This document shows, in pieces, positions 7,883 through 37,827 of a DNA stretch of 39,420 bases (position 1 is the stretch's first letter; each line of letters starts with the position of its first letter). A program made the translations under genes and the position numbers. The DNA comes from Nitrospirota bacterium (GTDB lineage: Bacteria; Nitrospirota; Nitrospiria; JACQBW01): the NCBI GenBank assembly GCA_016178585.1, contig JACOTA010000038.1, positions 1-39,420 of the forward strand, in the 5' to 3' direction. A model generated the notes under the pieces. The model was not told the origin of the DNA and did not search any database. It saw only the letters and a program-made list of their open reading frames with translations.

Positions 7883-7960
7883 GCCTGCCCTGGGCAACCA
7901 CGGGGGGTTGCCCCTACAAGAAACATGTCACAATTATTTTCACGTTTGTTTATATTAATT
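7883..7960 (-). repeat. REP-like palindrome in the iscA leader, with conserved flank
   Basis: On the minus strand this reads AATTGTGACATGTTTCT, then TGTAGGGGCAAC, CCCCCGTG, GTTGCCC, AGGGCAGGC. The same order occurs on the plus strand at 33687-33757, including about 30 bp of non-palindromic flank. It forms GGGGCAAC/GTTGCCC hairpins. The element ends 7 bp before the AAGGAG of iscA, so it is part of the transcript leader if the promoter lies upstream. Confidence 0.8.
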
Positions 7961-25895: not shown

Positions 25896-27356
25896 TTATT
25901 TATCCGGATCCTTGCTTCTTTTTCTGTGAAGCTGGTAAGCGCTGATGAGGAGCGAAACGCCCAGCCAGCCGCACAACAGCGCGAGGGGAATGGTTACCAA
26001 ACGGGGCCAGAAAACACTCGTCAGCCCCAGGGCCAGAAAAACCAGGCCTACGCCGGACATCATTCTTGCCTCCGCGGGACCCAATATTCGCTGGTTGGAC
26101 ACCGCGGCGCCGACGGCGTTTTTTATTCTGATCGCCCCCGCCCCCGCACGGCTGAGGGTTCCCTCGCCCCTTCCCCTTTGACCGAGAAATCGCCCAGGTC
26201 TTTTTTGAGCCAACCTCACTCCGCTGCGTTTACTCAAGATAATCTCCGTTGAATGGGCAATATCTTCGAGGTACATCTGCTCCATCGTCTTCGCGAAAGT
26301 TTCATCTTCTACCGCAACGTCCAGCTCATAATTCCCTATCCAGCTTGCCATGTTGAGGTTAGTCGATCCTACCCTGGCCCATCTTCCATCTGCAACTGCC
26401 GTTTTGGCGTGGAGCATCGATCCGTTCCATTCAAAGACCCTGATTCCGGCTTCGAGCAGGGGTTGGTATCCGGCCCTGGAAAAAGCCCGAAGAACAGGAA
26501 TATCGTTGGTCCCGGGCACGAGAAGTCTGACATCTACGCCGTCCCTCACGGCTGTTCTGAGGGCTTGCACATACGGAGTCATTCCGACAAAGTAAGCGTC
26601 CGTCAACCAGAGGTTTTTGCGCGCTAAAACCGCAATGAGGTGATCCAGCCGGTAAAGCCCCCCGGTGTTCGGAACACTTGCGACGACGCGTAACGCCATA
26701 TCCCCCGCCCGGGGGAGGCTCCCTCTTTCCGGCAACTCGTCTTCAGGCAGGGGAGAGCCCGTCTCTGCCCATACGTCGGCGAAGGCATGCTCAATGTCAG
26801 ATACCGCCGGTCCCCGCACTTCAACGCCCGTGTCGCGCCAGGGCTCAATAGAACGCTTCGGGGAACCGACCCACCTGAGACCGATGCAAAGGCCGGTTAC
26901 AAAACCGATCCTGCCGTCAACGGCAATCATCTTTCGATGATCCCTGCTAAGCCAGCTCAAAGGGTGGTCTAATTGGGGTGGGTTGTAACACCGGACTTCC
27001 ACACCGGCCTTCCTGAGCCGCTCCCAGAAGCGGGGCGAGGTGTTGCCGAGCGCCCCCAGCCAGTCATAAATCAGCCTGACGCGAACCCCTTCTTGCGCCC
27101 TGGCGGCCAGAGCCCGGGCGAACTGATTGCCTATGTCGTCTTCGTGGATGATATAGTTTTCAAAATGGATGGTTTTTTTGGCAGCGTCGATCGCTTCAAG
27201 CCAGGCGGGATAATTCTCCCGGGCATCCCGGAGAATTCGCACGCTGTTTCCCGCAACCAGAGGAGCTCCAGCGGCTCTTGAAAAAGCCTGTTCAGCGAGC
27301 AGGCGGACAGGGGAAGTTTTTTCATCAGTGGAGGGTTTAACATGAAGATCACTCAA
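25896..27356 (-). CDS. Phospholipase D-family cardiolipin synthase-like protein
   Basis: 486 aa. Two HKD motifs are complete: HRKMIAVDG (140-148) and HAKTAVADG (316-324, with GSTNLN after it). This is the arrangement of cardiolipin synthase ClsB-type enzymes, which join phosphatidylglycerol units. The C-terminus adds two hydrophobic segments (about 430-475), unlike ClsA, whose membrane segments are N-terminal. The start is TTG 27356 with GGGAG 8 nt upstream. It follows the AddB-like gene by 55 nt on the same strand. Its codons are more GC-rich than those of the neighbours. Exact substrate is inferred. Confidence 0.85.
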
Positions 27357-27411
27357 ACGACTGACTCCCTATACCCAACCCCGATTGGAAGGTGGACCCC
27401 TGTGGAGAAAA

Positions 27412-30243
27412 TCATCTTAGAATCCACTGTGTTCCGCAGATGGTTTGATAATCACATGCGGGGCAGGTCCTCTTCAGGTCAATCGCCGGTCCGAATGGGA
27501 CGGAGGGGTCGATTATTTCCTGAAGTAGTTTTAAAATGACCGTTTTCAGCGGAGCGTACACCTCGTCCGGCGAAGCTCCATTGAACAATGGAAGTTCGAT
27601 TTCCTTTCCTATTTTTGAACGGCCCAAAAACAGAAACAGGGCCTCAAGTTCCTCTATCCGGATTTTTTCTTTTTCGCTGTAAAGCATGATGTAGAAAGGC
27701 AACTGAAGGCTCCCGATGGCCTGTTCCCAACTCTCCCGTCTGTCCATTTTAAGCTTTTTCAGGTCAATCTTCAAGTACGCCTGGTTGGCGCCGGTTTTAT
27801 AGTCAACGATGACAATCTTGCCATTCCTCTTCTCGATTCTGTCTATTCTTCCCGCCAAATTAAACGCGTTTACCCTGACGTTTATTTTCTCCTCGCAGGC
27901 CAGGATGGCAATGCTGTTTTCGTTCACGAGCGGAACGCAATAAGCCTCGAGAAATTCACCCAAATGCCTTTTAACCTGCCTCTTCAGCAGATAAAGCGCG
28001 CCTGAGGAATCGGCGCCGTATCTATTCGCAAAATGGTTTTCTACCAGAGCATCCATCCGAGCCAAGTTCATATCCGTTTCTTTCAGCGGCTTATGTTTTA
28101 TTTCTGAAAAATAATCCCTCAAGACGGCATGAATAAAATTTCCCAGCTCATCGCGCTCGATGTCTCCTGATATTTCCTCTTTGGGTCTCAGTCCAAGGAC
28201 AGACGCGTAATAAAACTTAAGGGGACAGGCCAGATACCGGTCTAAAGCCGTTGCGCTGAAGGTAAACTCTTTCAGGAAAGCGACGGCGTCTCCGGTCTTA
28301 ACAATAGGCTCCGGGTTTTTGTTGACCAGGTTCACCTGGTATTGAATGGGTCTGATGTAGCGTCTCACGTCGGTGGTCTTGTCCCTTTTCTGCCTCGCCC
28401 AGAGAAGCTTTTCCACATAACGGGACCTCTCTGTCTTGTCGTTTTCGATAAAGAAAAGATGGACGTCTTTAGCCCCTTTCAGGAGCGTATCGAAATAATA
28501 GGCCGTCAGTTTATCCCTGTCGAAATAAGTGGGAAGACCCAGGATTTCCCGGGCTCTGAAGGGAATGAGAGTTTCTTCCTTTTTCGTTTCGGGAAGGACA
28601 TCCTCATTGGCATCCAGGACGAAGACACTCTTGAACTTGAGATTGCGTGTTTCCAGTGAACCTAACACTTGCAACCCTTTGAGCGGTGTGCCGGGAAAAG
28701 GAGTATGGCAGGTGGCGATATACTTCCGCAGGAAAAAAAAGTAGCTGGATCGGTCTTTAAAGGAGATCTCCTTCATCAACGATCGGGGAAGAACGTCAAG
28801 CGCCGCGATCAGGGATTCCGAAAAGGGATGGAAAAGAGGATGCAGTTTTGCGGGGCTCTGATTGAAGAGAAAGACGAGAATATCGATGCCATTCCTTGCG
28901 AACTCCCCAACATTCTCAAAGGAGAGGAAATTTCCAAGGGTGATTCTGTGAATTTCCTTCAGATGCTCCCTGAGCCGCTCTTCGGTCGCCTCTTTTTTGC
29001 CGGTGGGAAGTTTCTCTTTGACTTCCCTGAAGAGCGTTTTGCTCCCCTCGATCTCCTCGAGGGTGGTAAAGGTCCTGGCCTTGTGTCTGAGCAGTTCATC
29101 CTCAAGCGTGTGAAAAAGGATCCGGGTGGTCTCCGAATTTCTATGGAAATAAATGTTTTTAGTATAGGGATGCAAGACAAATTTCAGGTAGTCCGGGATA
29201 TAGATCCGGTCTCCGTCCATGGAAGTGACCAGTTCCATGAGGCTGTTGAGAAAACCAAAGACCGGAGTCCGAGACAAAGGATAACCCATCGATACGTTAT
29301 AGGAATCCTCGGTAATGTTGGAGAGACCTTGCCGTAAGAGAGGAAAAAGGGTATCTGACGTCGGCAGGACGATGACTGTGTTTTCATCCAGGGAATTTCC
29401 GGCCTCCACCCTGGTGTCGAGCACCTTGCCAAGGGCCAAAACCTGTCCATGGCTATCCGGGCTGCTGTAGAAGTGGATATCGGGTTCCGAAACTTCTGTC
29501 ACCGCCGGCTCTGGAGGAATACCGAATTCCTTGAGTTTTTCCGAAAGACCGACTCCCTGCTGGAAAAGGAAAACCGTATTGTCATGGGAAAGCAACTTCC
29601 GAAAGAGGGCCTTTTCGGCATGGGTCAGGGCAAAAAACCCGGCAAAGATGATACGGTCATATCGCTCAAGTCCCGCTTGTTCAACCTGTTCGGCCGCAAG
29701 CTGGTATCGTTTTGACCGGATAGAAAAACCCAGAGATTCCGCTTTCTTATAAAATTCCTCGTAAAAATAGCTCAGGGACTGCAGCCTCTCTTCTGTATGC
29801 TTGGGAATACCTTCGGTGATATAAGCTTCGATGCCTCTAAGTTTGTGGGATGGGACACCCTCGATGGCCAGCTCCTCGATGTCGCGATATATTTTCATCC
29901 CGAGAGGGAAAAAGCTGTCAGGTGATAAAAAACCGGTCCCCCCCAGCGGCTTCGGGGAATGCTTATGGATATCATACAACAGGGCCACGGCGTCGATGGT
30001 TTCAAGTTTCTTTAATAACCCAAATTTTTCGCAGATAAAATCGATGAACTCGTCAATAGAAAGGGTGACCGGCGGAATAAAGCTGGATCCGATCTCTTTG
30101 GCAAGGCCTTTTCTTAAGAAATGGGGGGGTCTTTTACCAGGAAAGATCACCAGAGACGACGAGAAATCCATCTCCTTTTCCTTAAGATGAGAGATCACCT
30201 CTTCGATTAGATCTCTGCCAGGGGGAACGACAACCACGTTCAT
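27412..30243 (-). CDS. addB: AddB-like PD-(D/E)XK nuclease subunit
   Basis: 943 aa. The N-terminal two thirds resembles an inactivated helicase fold without a Walker A motif (starts MNVVVVPPGRDLIEEV). From about residue 660 a RecB-type nuclease is visible: FSATALDRYLACPLKFYYAS, DELGNFIHAVLRDYF, LAGRIDRIEKRNGKIVIVDYKTG. Four cysteines (one in YLACPL, three in CPACDYQTIC) match the Fe-S cluster of AddB. With AddA it would resect double-strand breaks and feed RecA. ATG 30243 overlaps the AddA-like stop by 4 nt. Overall similarity to B. subtilis AddB is distant, so the symbol is functional rather than strict. Confidence 0.82.
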   Translation of the reverse strand: MNVVVVPPGRDLIEEVISHLKEKEMDFSSSLVIFPGKRPPHFLRKGLAKEIGSSFIPPVTLSIDEFIDFICEKFGLLKKLETIDAVALLYDIHKHSPKPLGGTGFLSPDSFFPLGMKIYRDIEELAIEGVPSHKLRGIEAYITEGIPKHTEERLQSLSYFYEEFYKKAESLGFSIRSKRYQLAAEQVEQAGLERYDRIIFAGFFALTHAEKALFRKLLSHDNTVFLFQQGVGLSEKLKEFGIPPEPAVTEVSEPDIHFYSSPDSHGQVLALGKVLDTRVEAGNSLDENTVIVLPTSDTLFPLLRQGLSNITEDSYNVSMGYPLSRTPVFGFLNSLMELVTSMDGDRIYIPDYLKFVLHPYTKNIYFHRNSETTRILFHTLEDELLRHKARTFTTLEEIEGSKTLFREVKEKLPTGKKEATEERLREHLKEIHRITLGNFLSFENVGEFARNGIDILVFLFNQSPAKLHPLFHPFSESLIAALDVLPRSLMKEISFKDRSSYFFFLRKYIATCHTPFPGTPLKGLQVLGSLETRNLKFKSVFVLDANEDVLPETKKEETLIPFRAREILGLPTYFDRDKLTAYYFDTLLKGAKDVHLFFIENDKTERSRYVEKLLWARQKRDKTTDVRRYIRPIQYQVNLVNKNPEPIVKTGDAVAFLKEFTFSATALDRYLACPLKFYYASVLGLRPKEEISGDIERDELGNFIHAVLRDYFSEIKHKPLKETDMNLARMDALVENHFANRYGADSSGALYLLKRQVKRHLGEFLEAYCVPLVNENSIAILACEEKINVRVNAFNLAGRIDRIEKRNGKIVIVDYKTGANQAYLKIDLKKLKMDRRESWEQAIGSLQLPFYIMLYSEKEKIRIEELEALFLFLGRSKIGKEIELPLFNGASPDEVYAPLKTVILKLLQEIIDPSVPFGPAIDLKRTCPACDYQTICGTQWILR

Positions 30244-33200
30244 AAGACCTTTTCCACCTCGTTAAGATCGACAAAAGCAATGAGGCCGGTGATGATCTTG
30301 TCATGATAGATCTCCCCAAGTATTTTCATATAGTTCCTCAATTGAGCCTGGTATTTCTCCAAAGTCCCCCTGTCCTTCCCCGTTTTATAATCAATCACCG
30401 TCAGGTTTTCCGGGTCGATCACCACACGGTCCATCCTGAAAAGCTTTCCGGTACCATCCGAATATTCCTGCTCTTTTCTTATTTCCCTTCCCGGTGACAT
30501 CGCGAAATAATTCCCGATCTCTCTGTTATTGACCATCGCAAGGATGAGATCTTTAATGTCCGCATCGGAAGTGTCGAATCCGGTTTCTTCTTTGACCCGC
30601 CTGATGATTTCCTGGAGCTGAGATTCAAAACCCTCTCTCACGTCGTCGACAAAGAACAACACCCTGTGGATGAAATCCCCCCGCTTTCTTTCCTCAACCG
30701 AAAGGAGTCCCTCATGACCGGAAGGGAATTCCAGCGGCTTGGATCGATGCTGGATCCGGCAATGGTCCATCCCAGCAGGGGCTTGCAACGTTTGTAGATG
30801 ATATTCCGGCTTTTTCGAGGGCGGGTACTCCTCGACCGGCAGGAGCACGAAGGGGTAGTTCTGGGGTTTGTTTGTCACACCGACCACGTAAAGCTCTCTT
30901 TGAGGGCGCGTAAACCCGACATAAAGGCTGTTGAGCCTGTTCACCATTTCGCGCATTTTCTCCGTATCATAAAGGCCTCGAAGAATGTCGTCACATTCGG
31001 CCTCGTCCTTGTTGATCTTGAGCAGGTGGACAATTTGACCTTTTTCCTCAAGGATATAGTCAAATCCCCTGTTTTTGACTTCATAGAGAAGGACAATCAC
31101 CACCGGAAAGCCCAGTCCCTTTGCCTTATGGATGGTCATGAGGCTGACCGCCTCAATGTTCTTGGGAACCGCCATATCCCAATTCTCATCTCCCGTTTCC
31201 CCGCCGGATGCGGCCGCGAGAAAATCGGTCAGGCTGTTAGATCCCTGGCTCTCAAACGCTTTGACGACTTCAAGAAATTTGATAAGCGCCGCTTCCTCTT
31301 CCGGCATCCTTTCAAAAACTTTAAAGACAGCAAACAGTTCTGTCATCAGGTCATAAATGGGAAGAAATCCCGATACCCTGAAGAGACCCTCGAAATACTT
31401 CTCCCAAAGAGTTCTGAACCTCTCCTGGAACGCCTTGTAAAGGGGAGGATGATCCCGCTGGCTAAAACAGAACTGCCTGAGATGGTCTATCCTGATTTCA
31501 GGATGGTCTGTCCGAATGGCCTGATTAAAAAGTTCCCCCAGGATAAACGCTCCGAATGAGAAATCATCGGTCGGCGAATCGAGAAAGTTAATGAACGCCA
31601 TAATTTCCCCGGTGATCTTACGACGCCTGATGTCGAGACTGCTGTAAGAAATAAAGGGGATATCTTTCTCGTTGAGCCAGGAGGTGACCTTTACGGCATG
31701 TTCGTTGGTCTGGGTCAGGACGGCAATATCCCGGTAGCGGTGCCCGCGCGAGCGTAACGCCTTAATCAATTCCTGTATCTTTTCTCTTTCGGCGGGTTCT
31801 TCTTCCCTCCTTTCTAAAAGAGAGACCTCCACATAGCCGTCATTTTCACGCGGGTCTTCCGGGTTTTGGATATAATCCGTGAGGCCGCTTTTTTCTCCGG
31901 CCGACTGGTACTCCTCATGTTCAGCCAGTTTTGTTTTGAAGACCCGTTCGTTAAATTCAAGAATTTTCCTTTTGCTTCGATAGTTCGTGTCGAGTTCTTT
32001 CACCGAATGTTCCGCCGATGGGAAAGGATTCGATCCTTCAAGTTCTTTCATGATCGTGTAGTCCGCATTCCGGAAGCCGTAGATCGATTGCTTCGTATCT
32101 CCCACGACAAAAAGGCTTCCTCCCTGGGCAAGCGAATTTTCAATTAAGGGAAAGAGGTTTCTCCATTGGATAGGCGAGGTGTCCTGAAACTCATCGATGA
32201 GGAAATGATAAATAATTTCCCCGATGCGGAAATAGACGTCTGGAACGATCGAACTGTTTAAATATTCCGCAAGATAGCTGTTGATATCCCCGATGAATAT
32301 TTTCCCCTGTTGTTTTTTCGTGATGTCGACAATCCGGGTGAACGACTGGAAGGTCTTTACATAGGGCGTGTAGCTGGACCGGCAGAGTAGGACCGTCAGT
32401 TCGCAAGTCAGGATTTTGAATTTCTCCCATAAGGCGGCGATGCGGTCGTAGGCAGCCTGTTCATCCGCTTTCCCTTTTGAAGGTTTGGTTACGGGAACGT
32501 TCGCATAGGCTTTTCCGGTCAGGTCCTGGAAACTTTTCTCCCTGATCTGGCGCGGAATACTTTTATAGGCAGAGTTGCCGCTCCTCTTAAGGCCCGAACG
32601 TTCGATTTCTTTCTCTATGTTCTCTACGCACGAAGCGATCCGGCGTTTTAACTTCTCTAAATCTTCACGAGTGTCCTCTGTCTCAGCCTCTTTTCCGGCG
32701 GCGGAAACTTTGGTGTAAATTTTCTTTGTCTCCTCAAGAAGAACCGTTGAAGGAATCCAGAGATAGGCTCCATCCTGTTTCTTGTATTCGAGGAGAGAGT
32801 CGACGATTTTCTCCAAATAGGCGGCCTCGGGGCTCCCTTGTTTGACATTACGAAGAAACAGGTTGAAGGCGTATTCCATCAGGGAGGTATTGTCCATCAA
32901 GATGTCAAAATCAGGGTTATATCCAAAATCAATCGCCGAGGCCTTAAAAACCGTCGTCATAAAACTGTCGATCGTCTTGACCTGGAAATCCACATAGTTT
33001 TCAAGGATCTCGTCGATCAGCCGTCCGGCCCGGGCCTTCATCTCTTCCACTTCAAGAGATACAATTTTCGAAAGCGCGGCAACCTTTTCCTCATCTCCGA
33101 AGTGAATTTCCTTTAGCCACGCCAGCGTCCGCTCTTTCATTTCCTTCGCTGCATTGTTCGAAAAGGTGATCGCAAGGATGTTTCGAAGCCGGTTCTTCGG

Positions 33201-33332
33201 AATCTTTTCGGAAAGGAGGAACTGGACCATTCTTTGGGTCAGCGTGTAGGTCTTGCCGGAACCGGCTGAGGCCTTGAGCACCGTGAGATGAGGAAACCTG
33301 ACTAATGTGTCTTTTTCGAGAATTTGCGGCAT
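30240..33332 (-). CDS. addA: AddA-like UvrD/RecB-family helicase-nuclease
   Basis: 1030 aa. Superfamily 1A helicase motifs: I VLKASAGSGKTYTL (18-31), II FLIDEFQDTSPIQW, III GDTKQSIYGFRNAD, V SLMTIHKAKGLGFPVV, VI VGFTRPQRELYVV. The C-terminal nuclease domain shows RGDFIHRVLFF and MDRVVIDPENLTVIDYKTG, as in RecB/AddA. Together with the overlapping AddB-like gene it should form the break-processing complex; no recC or recD is present, favouring the AddAB layout. ATG 33332 has TGAGG upstream. The gap 33333-33661 to the next feature is AT-rich and shows no gene. Confidence 0.88.
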   Translation of the reverse strand: MPQILEKDTLVRFPHLTVLKASAGSGKTYTLTQRMVQFLLSEKIPKNRLRNILAITFSNNAAKEMKERTLAWLKEIHFGDEEKVAALSKIVSLEVEEMKARAGRLIDEILENYVDFQVKTIDSFMTTVFKASAIDFGYNPDFDILMDNTSLMEYAFNLFLRNVKQGSPEAAYLEKIVDSLLEYKKQDGAYLWIPSTVLLEETKKIYTKVSAAGKEAETEDTREDLEKLKRRIASCVENIEKEIERSGLKRSGNSAYKSIPRQIREKSFQDLTGKAYANVPVTKPSKGKADEQAAYDRIAALWEKFKILTCELTVLLCRSSYTPYVKTFQSFTRIVDITKKQQGKIFIGDINSYLAEYLNSSIVPDVYFRIGEIIYHFLIDEFQDTSPIQWRNLFPLIENSLAQGGSLFVVGDTKQSIYGFRNADYTIMKELEGSNPFPSAEHSVKELDTNYRSKRKILEFNERVFKTKLAEHEEYQSAGEKSGLTDYIQNPEDPRENDGYVEVSLLERREEEPAEREKIQELIKALRSRGHRYRDIAVLTQTNEHAVKVTSWLNEKDIPFISYSSLDIRRRKITGEIMAFINFLDSPTDDFSFGAFILGELFNQAIRTDHPEIRIDHLRQFCFSQRDHPPLYKAFQERFRTLWEKYFEGLFRVSGFLPIYDLMTELFAVFKVFERMPEEEAALIKFLEVVKAFESQGSNSLTDFLAAASGGETGDENWDMAVPKNIEAVSLMTIHKAKGLGFPVVIVLLYEVKNRGFDYILEEKGQIVHLLKINKDEAECDDILRGLYDTEKMREMVNRLNSLYVGFTRPQRELYVVGVTNKPQNYPFVLLPVEEYPPSKKPEYHLQTLQAPAGMDHCRIQHRSKPLEFPSGHEGLLSVEERKRGDFIHRVLFFVDDVREGFESQLQEIIRRVKEETGFDTSDADIKDLILAMVNNREIGNYFAMSPGREIRKEQEYSDGTGKLFRMDRVVIDPENLTVIDYKTGKDRGTLEKYQAQLRNYMKILGEIYHDKIITGLIAFVDLNEVEKVL

Positions 33333-33661: not shown

Positions 33662-33677
33662 TGGCACATTATTTGCT
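33662..33677 (+). promoter_or_regulatory. Sigma-54 (-24/-12) promoter
   Basis: TGGCAC-ATTAT-TTGCT matches the RpoN consensus TGGCACr-N4-TTGCw at every conserved base with exact spacing. Transcription would start near 33688, about 125 nt before ATG 33814, making the REP-like palindrome the transcript leader. No enhancer-binding protein gene is in the window. Confidence 0.75.
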
Positions 33678-33686
33678 TTCTGATTA

Positions 33687-33773
33687 ATACAAACGTAAAA
33701 AGAATTGTGACATGTTTCTGTAGGGGCAACCCCCCGTGGTTGCCCAGGGCAGGCACAGGGGCCTGCCCCTACA
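33687..33773 (+). repeat. REP-like double palindrome
   Basis: Ends TGTAGGGGCA (33719-33728) and TGCCCCTACA (33764-33773) are inverted repeats. Inside are two hairpins: GGGGCAAC/GTTGCCC and GGGCAGGC/GCCTGCCC. The left 70 bp, including AATTGTGACATGTTTCT, recurs at 7883-7960 and the right half at 7463-7490. Confidence 0.82.
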
Positions 33774-33813
33774 ATTAAAAATTTGAAACTTCTTTCGGAG
33801 GTTTCTTTTTAAA

Positions 33814-34170
33814 ATGAAAAACAATTACCCCCAGCTCATTCTTGAAAAAATAAATACTGTTTTACTAGAAAAACAAAAACCCGCGGTTAATCTTGAGCAG
33901 GTTGTTTTTATTTTAGGCATGAACCTGTTGAATTATCATAAAAATTTCTGTATGGTTTCAAAATCAGAGCTTATTTCACCCGATAAACTAGAAACGAATA
34001 TGACCCCTTTACTCCAGGGAGGTCCTAAAATCATTCGTGCGATTCTTATGCCGATGGAAGATCAAAGATATCTGATCGAACTCTTTTTCGGACCCCCAAA
34101 GGGAAGCGTTCTCCCTGAAATTATTGGGAATCCTGACCTCAGGCGAACTGTAAAAGTCGTTGAAATTTAG
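33814..34170 (+). CDS. Hypothetical 118-aa protein, probably sigma-54 controlled
   Basis: 118 aa, no signal peptide or membrane segment, no recognised domain. It begins MKNNYPQLILEKINTVL, has an amphipathic middle (LEQVVFILGMNLLNYHKN) and a C-terminal half with GGPKIIRAILMPMEDQRYLIELFFGPP. GGAGG lies 12 nt before ATG 33814. It overlaps the NHL-repeat gene by 11 nt, so the two form an operon. A perfect sigma-54 site lies about 140 nt upstream. Confidence 0.7.
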   Translation: MKNNYPQLILEKINTVLLEKQKPAVNLEQVVFILGMNLLNYHKNFCMVSKSELISPDKLETNMTPLLQGGPKIIRAILMPMEDQRYLIELFFGPPKGSVLPEIIGNPDLRRTVKVVEI

Positions 34171-35317
34171 TTTAATTTCTTTTCTCATTTTCCCTGCATT
34201 CTTTATCGGCGCCATGGCAATGGGCGCGGCAGATATCACGTCAGTCAATGAGGATTCAGCCCCCTCCGGGAAGCCTTTACCTAAAATCAGGCTCTTTCCG
34301 ATTGTAGAAAACCCTCCAAACATCTACGAATGCGGATATCAAGACGGGCCGCCAAATGCCGCAAGGTTTTGCAATCCCACTCATTTAACAACAGACGGGA
34401 AAAACCTCTATGTCGCGGACACCTCAAACCATGTCATCCGGAAAATCGTTCTGTCAACCGGGCGGGTCACTACGCTCGCCGGATACGGAGGGCAATTCGG
34501 CTCAGTCGACGAAACGGGTTCCGGCGCCAGATTCCGGAGCCCACGGGGGATGACTCTCGATAAGAAACGAGACACCCTCTATATAACCGACACGGGAAAT
34601 CACACCATTAGGAAAATTGTCATCTCAAACGCCTCGGTCTCAACGGTCGCCGGAACGTCAGAACGGTTTGGTTCAAACGATGGACCGGGCCTATCAGCCA
34701 GATTTAATGAACCGCAAGGAATTACCGGCGATCCGTCAGGAACCTCTCTTTATATTGCGGACACCTCAAACCATACGATCCGGAAAATTGAAGCGGCAAC
34801 AGGAATGGTTACGACGATCGCGGGTCGTCCGGGCTTTTTGGGATTTGAAGACGGAAAGGGAACGGCCTCCCGCTTTGACCACCCCACAGATATCGCCGTC
34901 GATCCTTCGGGAGCTTATCTTTACGTCGCCGACGCCTCCAACCAGGCTGTCCGAAAAATTGTGATTGCAACGGGCGAAGTGACAACCCTCCTCGGTAAAA
35001 GGGGAGAGAAGCGTGCCGGAGGGAGGTTAGGTATCCCCCACGGAATTACCCTTGATCCCTCAGGCGCCAATATTTATGTTGCTGACACAGCAAACCATTC
35101 TATTCGAAAGATTGATGCCTCCACAGGAGAAACCTCAAACTTTACCGGCACCCCGGGATCACCCCTTTTCGGGTTTCCCCAGGGCATCGTCTTCCCTGAC
35201 GAAGAAAACACCCTCCTCATTTCAGACAAACTCAGTAATTCCATCCAAAAATGGGCCATTGCCACAGGAAAGGTTACCACCCTGGCGGGTCCTCCAGGCT
35301 TTCCAAAAAATAAATAG
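34160..35317 (+). CDS. Secreted NHL-repeat beta-propeller protein
   Basis: 385 aa. The N-terminal 23 residues (MKFSLISFLIFPAFF...) look like a signal peptide. Five or six repeats of about 55 residues follow, each with a PxGITxDPSG(T/A)xLYVADTxNHxIRKI core and a GxVTTLAG end; together they should fold into a six-bladed NHL propeller, a binding surface rather than an enzyme. The start is TTG 34160, overlapping the preceding gene by 11 nt and without a ribosome binding site, so translation is probably coupled. Partner unknown. It could be an extracytoplasmic scaffold. Confidence 0.85.
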   Translation: MKFSLISFLIFPAFFIGAMAMGAADITSVNEDSAPSGKPLPKIRLFPIVENPPNIYECGYQDGPPNAARFCNPTHLTTDGKNLYVADTSNHVIRKIVLSTGRVTTLAGYGGQFGSVDETGSGARFRSPRGMTLDKKRDTLYITDTGNHTIRKIVISNASVSTVAGTSERFGSNDGPGLSARFNEPQGITGDPSGTSLYIADTSNHTIRKIEAATGMVTTIAGRPGFLGFEDGKGTASRFDHPTDIAVDPSGAYLYVADASNQAVRKIVIATGEVTTLLGKRGEKRAGGRLGIPHGITLDPSGANIYVADTANHSIRKIDASTGETSNFTGTPGSPLFGFPQGIVFPDEENTLLISDKLSNSIQKWAIATGKVTTLAGPPGFPKNK

Positions 35318-35352
35318 CGATTGACTCTTCCAAACAAGCTGTTAAAATTAAG

Positions 35353-37827
35353 ATGATCTTTAACAGAGGAAATTCCTGCTATCTTATGATGACGCTTATT
35401 TGGTTTTTGTTGGGTGTAGCCGCATTCTGGACACTTGCCGCTTACCGGGCTCCGGGATACCTCTGGACGGGAACCGCCGGAGCCGGTCTGGCGCTTTGGA
35501 CGGTTTTAACCCGTCAACCGGCTGAAATGCTGTTTCTGACGTTTGGACTTTTCCTTTTAATCGTTTTTCCTCTTAACATTTCCGTCCTTCGACGGTTAAT
35601 CATCAGCAACCCCCTGTTACATCTTTTCCGGAAAAAAGTTCCTCACATGTCCCAAACAGAAAGAGAAGCTCTGGCGGCAGGCACCGTCTGGTGGGATGCC
35701 GACCTTTTCAGCGGAAGGCCGGATTGGAAAAAGCTTCTTTCCGTACCGGTTCCCCGGATGACGAGCGAAGAACAAGCCTTTCTTGACGGCCCGGTCGTGG
35801 AGCTCTGTCAGATGCTCGATGACTGGCGGATCAACCAGGAATACCGCGACCTTCCACCTGAAGTCTGGAAATTTATAAAAGAGAAGGGGTTCTTTGGAAT
35901 GATCATTCCAAAGAAATACGGAGGATTGGAGTTTTCCGCGCTTGCCCATTCCAACGTTATTATGAAAATTGCCAGCCGAAGCCTTTCCGCTTCCGTAACC
36001 GTTATGGTCCCGAATTCCCTTGGCCCCGCTGAAATCCTTCTTCATTATGGGACAGAAGAACAAAAAGACTACTATTTGCCGAGATTGGCCCGCGGACAGG
36101 AAATCCCCTGTTTTGCTTTGACAAGTTTGGACGCGGGAAGCGACGCCGCCTCCATGACCGATTCGGGGATCGTCTGCCGGGGAGATTTCGATGGAAAAAA
36201 AGATATTTTGGGAATTCGGCTAACCTGGGAAAAGCGGTATATTACTTTGGGACCCGTGGCCACCGTATTAGGTCTGGCTTTTAAACTTTACGATCCCGGC
36301 CACCTGCTTGGTTCTAAAGAAGAACTTGGAATCACCGTGGCCCTGATTCCTACCCAAACGCCCGGAGTCGTGATTGGACGACGTCATGTTCCCATGAATC
36401 TTGCGTTCCAGAATGGCCCTAACAGCGGAAAAGATGTCTTTATTCCTATCGACTGGATTGTCGGAGGGGTCAAACAGGCCGGACGCGGCTGGACCATGCT
36501 CATGGAAAGCCTTGCCGCAGGGCGGTCAATTTCCCTCCCCGCTCTTTCAACGGGCGCAGGCAAACTGGCCAGTCGTTCAACCGGAGCCTATGCGGCCATC
36601 CGCAGGCAATTTAAAACACCCATCGGACATTTTGAGGGAATTGAAGAACCCTTAGCCCGGATCGGCGGAATGACTTACCTCATGGACGCCGCCCGGGTCA
36701 TGACCCTGGGAGCCGTCGATGCGGGACAAAAACCTTCTGTGATTTCGGCGATGCTCAAATATCACCTGACGGAACTCATGCGCCGGGTCGTCAATGACGC
36801 AATGGACATCCAGGGAGGAAGCGGAATTTGTTTTGGCCCCAGAAATTTTATGGGGCGGGTTTATGAAGCAATCCCCATCAGCATCACCGTCGAAGGAGCG
36901 AACATCCTGACCCGCAGTCTGATTATTTTCGGACAGGGGGCCATTCGGTGCCACCCTTATATCTTAAAGGAGATGGAAGCGACCGCTGATCCCGATATCC
37001 GAAGAGCTTCCAAAAATTTTGATCGGGCCTTTTTTGGCCATGTCAAATACTTGCTCAGCAACGCCGCAAGGTCGTTTTTCATGGGATTAACCGGCGCGCG
37101 GTTTTCCGCTTCGCCGGTTCAAGGGGCTGTCGGGTGGCATTATAAGCAACTGACAAGAATGAGCGCCGCTTTTGCGTTAATCGCCGATCTGTCCATGCTC
37201 ATCATGGGGGGTGCCCTTAAACAACGGGAGAAATTGTCGGCCCGTCTCGGCGACATCCTGAGCTACCTTTATATTGCTTCGGCCGTACTTAAACGTTTTG
37301 AAGACGAGGGACGCCAGAAAGAAGATCTTCCTTTAGTGCAGTGGAGCTGTGAATATTGCCTTCACCAGATTCGTCAACGCCTTGCCGAACTCCTTAAAAA
37401 CTTCCCGGTGATTTCACTCTCCTGGCTGTTAAGAGTTCTGATTTTTCCGGACGGGAGGCCATTCAAAGCGCCGCATGATAACCTCGGTCATCAAATCGCC
37501 CGGTTACTGCTCCGGCCAGGTTCCACAAGGGATCGCTTAACCAAAGGAATTTTTATTCCAAAGTCGCCTGATGAAACAATCGGAAGACTCGAATCAGCTT
37601 TAGAAAAAATCATTGCGGCGGAGGGAGCCGAACAAAAATTGCAAAAAGCCGTTCATGCCCGGATCCTTCATGCCCGAAATGAAGAATCCATGATTCAGGA
37701 AGGGGTTAAGCAGGGGATTATCAGCGAGGATGAGGCCGCTCTCTTAAAGACGGCCAACGATTCGCGCCGGGAAGCCGTCCGGGTTGATGATTTTCCTCCT
37801 GACAGCCCTCTTTTCAAATCCTTCTGA
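35353..37827 (+). CDS. fadE: Acyl-CoA dehydrogenase FadE
   Basis: 824 aa, as in E. coli FadE. Two or three N-terminal membrane segments are followed by MSQTEREALAAGTVWWDADLF, PRLARGQEIPCFALTSLDAGSDA, MRLTW-like GIRLTWEKRYITLGPVATVLG, SITVEGANILTRSLIIFGQGA and a C-terminal VDDFPPDSPLF. It catalyses the first step of fatty acid beta-oxidation and passes electrons to the quinone pool through ETF. ATG 35353 starts the longest frame; ATG 35386 or 35389 are possible. The M29-like gene begins 3 nt past its stop. Confidence 0.95.
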   Translation: MIFNRGNSCYLMMTLIWFLLGVAAFWTLAAYRAPGYLWTGTAGAGLALWTVLTRQPAEMLFLTFGLFLLIVFPLNISVLRRLIISNPLLHLFRKKVPHMSQTEREALAAGTVWWDADLFSGRPDWKKLLSVPVPRMTSEEQAFLDGPVVELCQMLDDWRINQEYRDLPPEVWKFIKEKGFFGMIIPKKYGGLEFSALAHSNVIMKIASRSLSASVTVMVPNSLGPAEILLHYGTEEQKDYYLPRLARGQEIPCFALTSLDAGSDAASMTDSGIVCRGDFDGKKDILGIRLTWEKRYITLGPVATVLGLAFKLYDPGHLLGSKEELGITVALIPTQTPGVVIGRRHVPMNLAFQNGPNSGKDVFIPIDWIVGGVKQAGRGWTMLMESLAAGRSISLPALSTGAGKLASRSTGAYAAIRRQFKTPIGHFEGIEEPLARIGGMTYLMDAARVMTLGAVDAGQKPSVISAMLKYHLTELMRRVVNDAMDIQGGSGICFGPRNFMGRVYEAIPISITVEGANILTRSLIIFGQGAIRCHPYILKEMEATADPDIRRASKNFDRAFFGHVKYLLSNAARSFFMGLTGARFSASPVQGAVGWHYKQLTRMSAAFALIADLSMLIMGGALKQREKLSARLGDILSYLYIASAVLKRFEDEGRQKEDLPLVQWSCEYCLHQIRQRLAELLKNFPVISLSWLLRVLIFPDGRPFKAPHDNLGHQIARLLLRPGSTRDRLTKGIFIPKSPDETIGRLESALEKIIAAEGAEQKLQKAVHARILHARNEESMIQEGVKQGIISEDEAALLKTANDSRREAVRVDDFPPDSPLFKSF

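Follow-up and report, generated by a model that had tools for sequence, protein, structure and literature searches.

The window analyzed here, a stretch of 39,420 nucleotides from a Nitrospirota bacterium (contig JACOTA010000038.1), carries on its + strand a predicted sigma-54 -24/-12 promoter element (33662..33677), a gene whose 118-aa product belongs to no known family (P0001; 33814..34170) and a gene for a 385-aa NHL-repeat protein with a modelled six-bladed propeller fold (34160..35317, with an uncertain TTG start). The initial annotation had placed the 118-aa protein outside known families and described an overlap of its gene with a beta-propeller gene. Both points are borne out: the 118-aa protein has no Pfam or NCBIfam match, its ORF shares its last 11 bases with the NHL ORF, and the product of the latter scores 104.3 bits against a cut-off of 20 for Pfam NHL (PF01436). 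Further downstream on the same strand, an acyl-CoA dehydrogenase gene (35353-37827) is preceded by a predicted sigma-70-like promoter (35321..35348), suggesting a sigma-54 unit of two genes, with the NHL gene as its last.

The leader of this putative operon contains a GC-rich palindrome of 55 bases (33719..33773), which is a copy of an interspersed REP-like repeat; the left 27 bases of the palindrome were found in 16 genome copies at ≤3 mismatches, against 0 for the reversed control. Within the window, the 27-base REP-like arm occurs at 33719-33745 and at 7892-7918. The leader RNA is predicted to fold strongly (z -4.07). Closer to the 118-aa gene, a + strand hairpin that takes in the GGAGG of the probable ribosome-binding site and is followed by a T-run (33785..33805) is not statistically significant.

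Structure and distribution of the encoded proteins

The model of the NHL protein (three-sequence alignment, mean pLDDT 80) features six four-stranded blades preceded by 56 low-confidence residues, which open with a hydrophobic stretch. Read by eye, this stretch is probably an export signal, and the protein would thus be exported. The nearest PDB folds are NHL-type propellers, and the protein shares both the Pfam NHL match and the six four-stranded blades with the lumenal domains of quenching proteins (7djj/7djl), NHLRC2 and the sensor domain of PknD. Unlike these solved propellers, it has two conserved cysteines, C58 and C71, located before and in the first blade and invariant in the three sequences compared; moreover, it lacks an attached domain and is paired with a 118-aa partner not known elsewhere. 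Its identification as L-NosZ (NF052460) was rejected: the match spans 76 residues, scores 32 bits where the cut-off is 700, and reflects generic propeller similarity.

The 118-aa protein was found in two of the 40 genomes of the relatives search (the window's own included), in one of the 295 genomes of the phylum sample (the window's own) and in three of the 269 genomes of the class, one of the latter being a weak match with three stops. This class-wide match of genome G409 to the 118-aa profile (E 0.003, three internal stops) was dismissed. A scan of a named genome collection with the single 118-aa sequence gave no match, while a two-sequence alignment retrieved one locus in the same collection, on contig JACQBY010000115.1 of a Nitrospirae groundwater MAG, which we take as the locus of the one homologue (58% identity), found in genome G001. 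Plasmid and viral scans returned no relative, the best E-value of the PDB sequence search was 0.8, and the structure prediction reached a pLDDT of 56 with the two-sequence alignment. NHL matches occur in 187 of the 269 class genomes. Our survey of the literature on sigma-54 in Nitrospira/Nitrospirae, on NHL repeats and on the repeat motif found nothing on this operon.

The sigma-54 element and its conservation

The element, TGGCACATTATTTGCT (TGGCAC-ATTAT-TTGCT), fits TGGCAC-N5-TTGCT with no mismatch, its GG and GC being correctly spaced, and predicts a transcription start near 33688. No other site in the window matches TGGCAC-N5-TTGCW without mismatch, and a search of both strands for the strict form, TGGCAY-N5-TTGCW, yields this site alone; the initial annotation, which had claimed a match at all conserved RpoN positions and noticed no other such site, is correct on both counts. 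Matches at ≤2 mismatches in the window number 13, for 12.6 expected. Genome-wide, four perfect sites are present in 2,448,663 bases (82 contigs), against two for the reversed pattern; perfect sites are thus not clearly enriched, and the genome count by itself lends weak support to the element. One of the four is the present element. Another lies behind a sigma-54 activator gene and 53 bases 5' of a gene series that runs flgB, flgC, fliE, fliF. Two of the four fall within ORFs and were dismissed as probably due to chance.

The data searched contain a single homologous operon, in G001, a genome of the same family as that of the window. The gene pair is kept there, the 118-aa and NHL proteins being 58% and 54% identical, respectively, and is preceded by a strict sigma-54 site, TGGCATGGTAATTGCT, beginning 158 bases 5' of the 118-aa homologue (152 in the window). 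With the two upstream regions anchored on this site, 15/20 bases agree in the block that holds it, compared with 4-11/20 in each of eleven other blocks. Among 100,000 Markov sequences matched to the 285-bp interval in length and composition, 65 contained a strict site, and the recurrence of the site in G001 hence exceeds chance. The initial annotation had also proposed to look for conservation of the promoter in relatives and for an enhancer upstream: the former was found in the one homologous operon available, while the window showed no recognisable enhancer for an AAA+ activator. In G001, a perfect inverted repeat with 8-base arms is centred 90 bases above the -24 element, a position common for enhancers; no counterpart was found in the window. 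The conservation of the site in the G001 operon and the perfect site in front of flgBC-fliEF together render the element at 33662-33677 credible.

Past the promoter, the leader is not conserved, since G001 has an ORF there and the palindrome was not found at this position. This ORF (L020 1408-1482), which follows the sigma-54 element and precedes the 118-aa homologue, has a good ribosome site and encodes a hydrophobic peptide of 24 aa; it is not present in the window.

In a third member of the family, G002, the surroundings of the NHL gene (53% identity) repeat the gene order of the window, namely with the acyl-CoA dehydrogenase, a 337-aa gene, a PAS-LuxR regulator, YceI, ArfB-like and CrcB. 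Neither the relatives search nor the class search found the 118-aa gene in G002, and the vicinity of its NHL gene contains no strict sigma-54 site, only one poor GG-N10-GC stretch. Because G002 lacks both, gene and site occur together or are missing together across the three family members examined, a pattern that counts in favor of a genuine promoter. Among 30 NHL loci fetched, strict sites were found in the window and G001 only, a survey that says little because the other loci, except that of G002, belong to distant propellers (≤184 bits vs 434).

Signs of a sigma-54 machinery in the genome

The 96% complete assembly from which the window originates yielded no RpoN DNA-binding or core-binding domain, whereas rpoN is present in 53 of the 58 genomes of the relatives search, including G001, where hpf and rapZ adjoin it. 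Neither hpf nor rapZ was found in the window's assembly, and no rpoN was found in G002; the three genes are jointly missing from these two of the three assemblies of the family. The window's genome nevertheless encodes 14 strong sigma-54 activators. Twelve of them have a contact loop of the form G-x-[FY]-T-G-A, the other two reading GAFTNA and GAFTDA, and one of the 14 exceeds the NifA cut-off and adjoins glnA. No activator match was found on the window's own contig. The 14 activators (most with an intact contact loop, and a NifA among them) and the flagellar site make a gap in the assembly a likelier cause of the missing rpoN than loss of the gene, and we infer that RpoN is present. Loss of sigma-54 as the main reading was rejected on the same evidence.

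The system resembles known sigma-54 promoters served by AAA+ activators, of the flagellar, nif and ntr type, in having all conserved positions and the spacing of the element, the same element before flgB and many activators in the genome. It differs from them in that no activator gene adjoins the operon, no enhancer was recognised and rpoN is missing from the assembly.

Possible relation to nitrite and nitric oxide

In G001, the operon is flanked by an Rrf2 (Rrf2/NsrR-like) gene and, after the NHL gene, by a convergent copper nitrite reductase gene (nirK). In the window's genome, nirK and an NsrR-like Rrf2 gene lie side by side in divergent orientation on another contig (L059 4057-5554), beside a hemerythrin-like ORF (named by eye). 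An NsrR-like box matching 18/22 positions lies between these two genes, and a weaker one (17/22) is found 5' of nirK in G001; the best match per sequence in 20 shuffled or simulated sequences of 10 kb was 14-17. Just 5' of the G001 nirK and on its strand, a looser sigma-54-like site, TGGTATATGAATTGC (L021 12973-12987), overlaps the NsrR-like box.

Upstream of the operon itself, the best NsrR box matches 13/22 positions in the window interval and 15/22 in G001, both within chance, and no tandem NorR sites stand out. Direct control of the operon by NsrR or NorR was rejected in the absence of a credible box or tandem sites. Roles of NsrR, NorR and sigma-54 in nitrogen-oxide metabolism are described in PMC1274295. 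Compared with the NsrR and NorR regulons, the operon shares nirK and Rrf2 flanks in G001 and a sigma-54 promoter as in NorR targets, but it has neither tandem NorR sites nor a credible NsrR box. The single neighbourhood in G001 weakly suggests a nitrite/NO role, which stays a lead only because such sites are missing at the operon.

Interpretation and alternative explanations

The best explanation of these observations is that 33662-33677 is, quite probably, a genuine sigma-54 promoter for the operon. RpoN-RNA polymerase would bind the -24/-12 element and wait for an AAA+ activator, presumably the product of a gene at another place in the genome, to open the complex; the mRNA starting from about 33688 would cover the 118-aa and the overlapping NHL genes, the shared transcript being something we infer. 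The initial annotation stated outright that the element controls the 118-aa protein, overlapping a secreted beta-propeller gene; a promoter for both genes is favored by the conservation in G001 and by a functional-looking genomic sigma-54 system, and the claim is kept here in the weaker form of probable control. Its suggestion of use under nutrient shift or surface growth found no specific support.

The site could instead be a chance match or a relic, functionless since the loss of rpoN, transcription then starting from some other promoter in the AT-rich upstream DNA. Such a scenario, which we regard as rather unlikely, would account for the missing RpoN domain, for the joint absence of rpoN, hpf and rapZ from two family members and for the modest excess of perfect sites over the reversed pattern (four vs two). 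It fits poorly with the retention of the site in G001, which has rpoN, with the 14 activators and their mostly intact contact loops, NifA among them, with the flagellar sigma-54 site and with the lack of any sigma-70-like match found on the + strand between 33300 and 33814. The extent of the transcript is a separate matter. From the NHL gene onward, the genes follow one another on one strand with short gaps, and the NHL, dehydrogenase and 337-aa genes adjoin in G002 too; a longer sigma-54 transcript, including the acyl-CoA dehydrogenase and later genes and serving mainly lipid metabolism, could be envisaged on this basis. The sigma-70-like promoter between the NHL and dehydrogenase genes and the convergent nirK after the NHL gene in G001 make this doubtful.

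A further possibility concerns the signal rather than the promoter: the operon products may protect or serve copper nitrite reductase, under a nitrogen-oxide-sensing sigma-54 activator. The position of the G001 operon between the Rrf2 and nirK genes points in this direction, as do the neighbouring nirK and Rrf2 genes of the window's genome with the 18/22 box between them. This neighbourhood of the operon was seen in one genome, however, neither genome has a convincing NsrR box or tandem NorR sites at the operon, and class members that lack the 118-aa gene have nirK relatives too. We hold this response to be improbable as well.

Returning to the preferred reading of a genuine promoter, we read the operon as a family-specific sigma-54 unit that encodes an NHL propeller together with a novel small protein, within an otherwise ordinary sigma-54 world. 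A conditional function at the cell envelope is our best guess, with nitrite/NO-related conditions as the likeliest single trigger, itself of low probability. A comparative study ties sigma-54 to exterior functions (PMC3162934); this fits the putatively exported NHL protein and proves nothing for the present operon. The most far-reaching version, in which the 118-aa protein founds a new family and forms with the exported propeller (and the 24-aa membrane peptide in G001) a sigma-54-switched nitrite/NO envelope module proper to one Nitrospirota family, is very unlikely.

More generally, an uncharacterised, lineage-specific protein pair is here tied to a defined switch, and its condition of use could be found via a short list of activators. 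The case also illustrates how a single consensus match, unremarkable by count, is made credible by its conserved position in a relative, and the apparent absence of rpoN from an activator-rich assembly is a warning against reading absence from draft genomes.

Elsewhere in the window, an addAB-type locus (25896-33332) corresponds to L021 1335-9384 of G001, in each case beside a cardiolipin-synthase-like gene (77% identical). Both genomes have a RecB/AddA-like helicase gene there together with one for an AddB-like nuclease, but the order of the two is reversed between the genomes and identity is only ~25%, as if an addAB pair had been replaced by a distant one at this locus.
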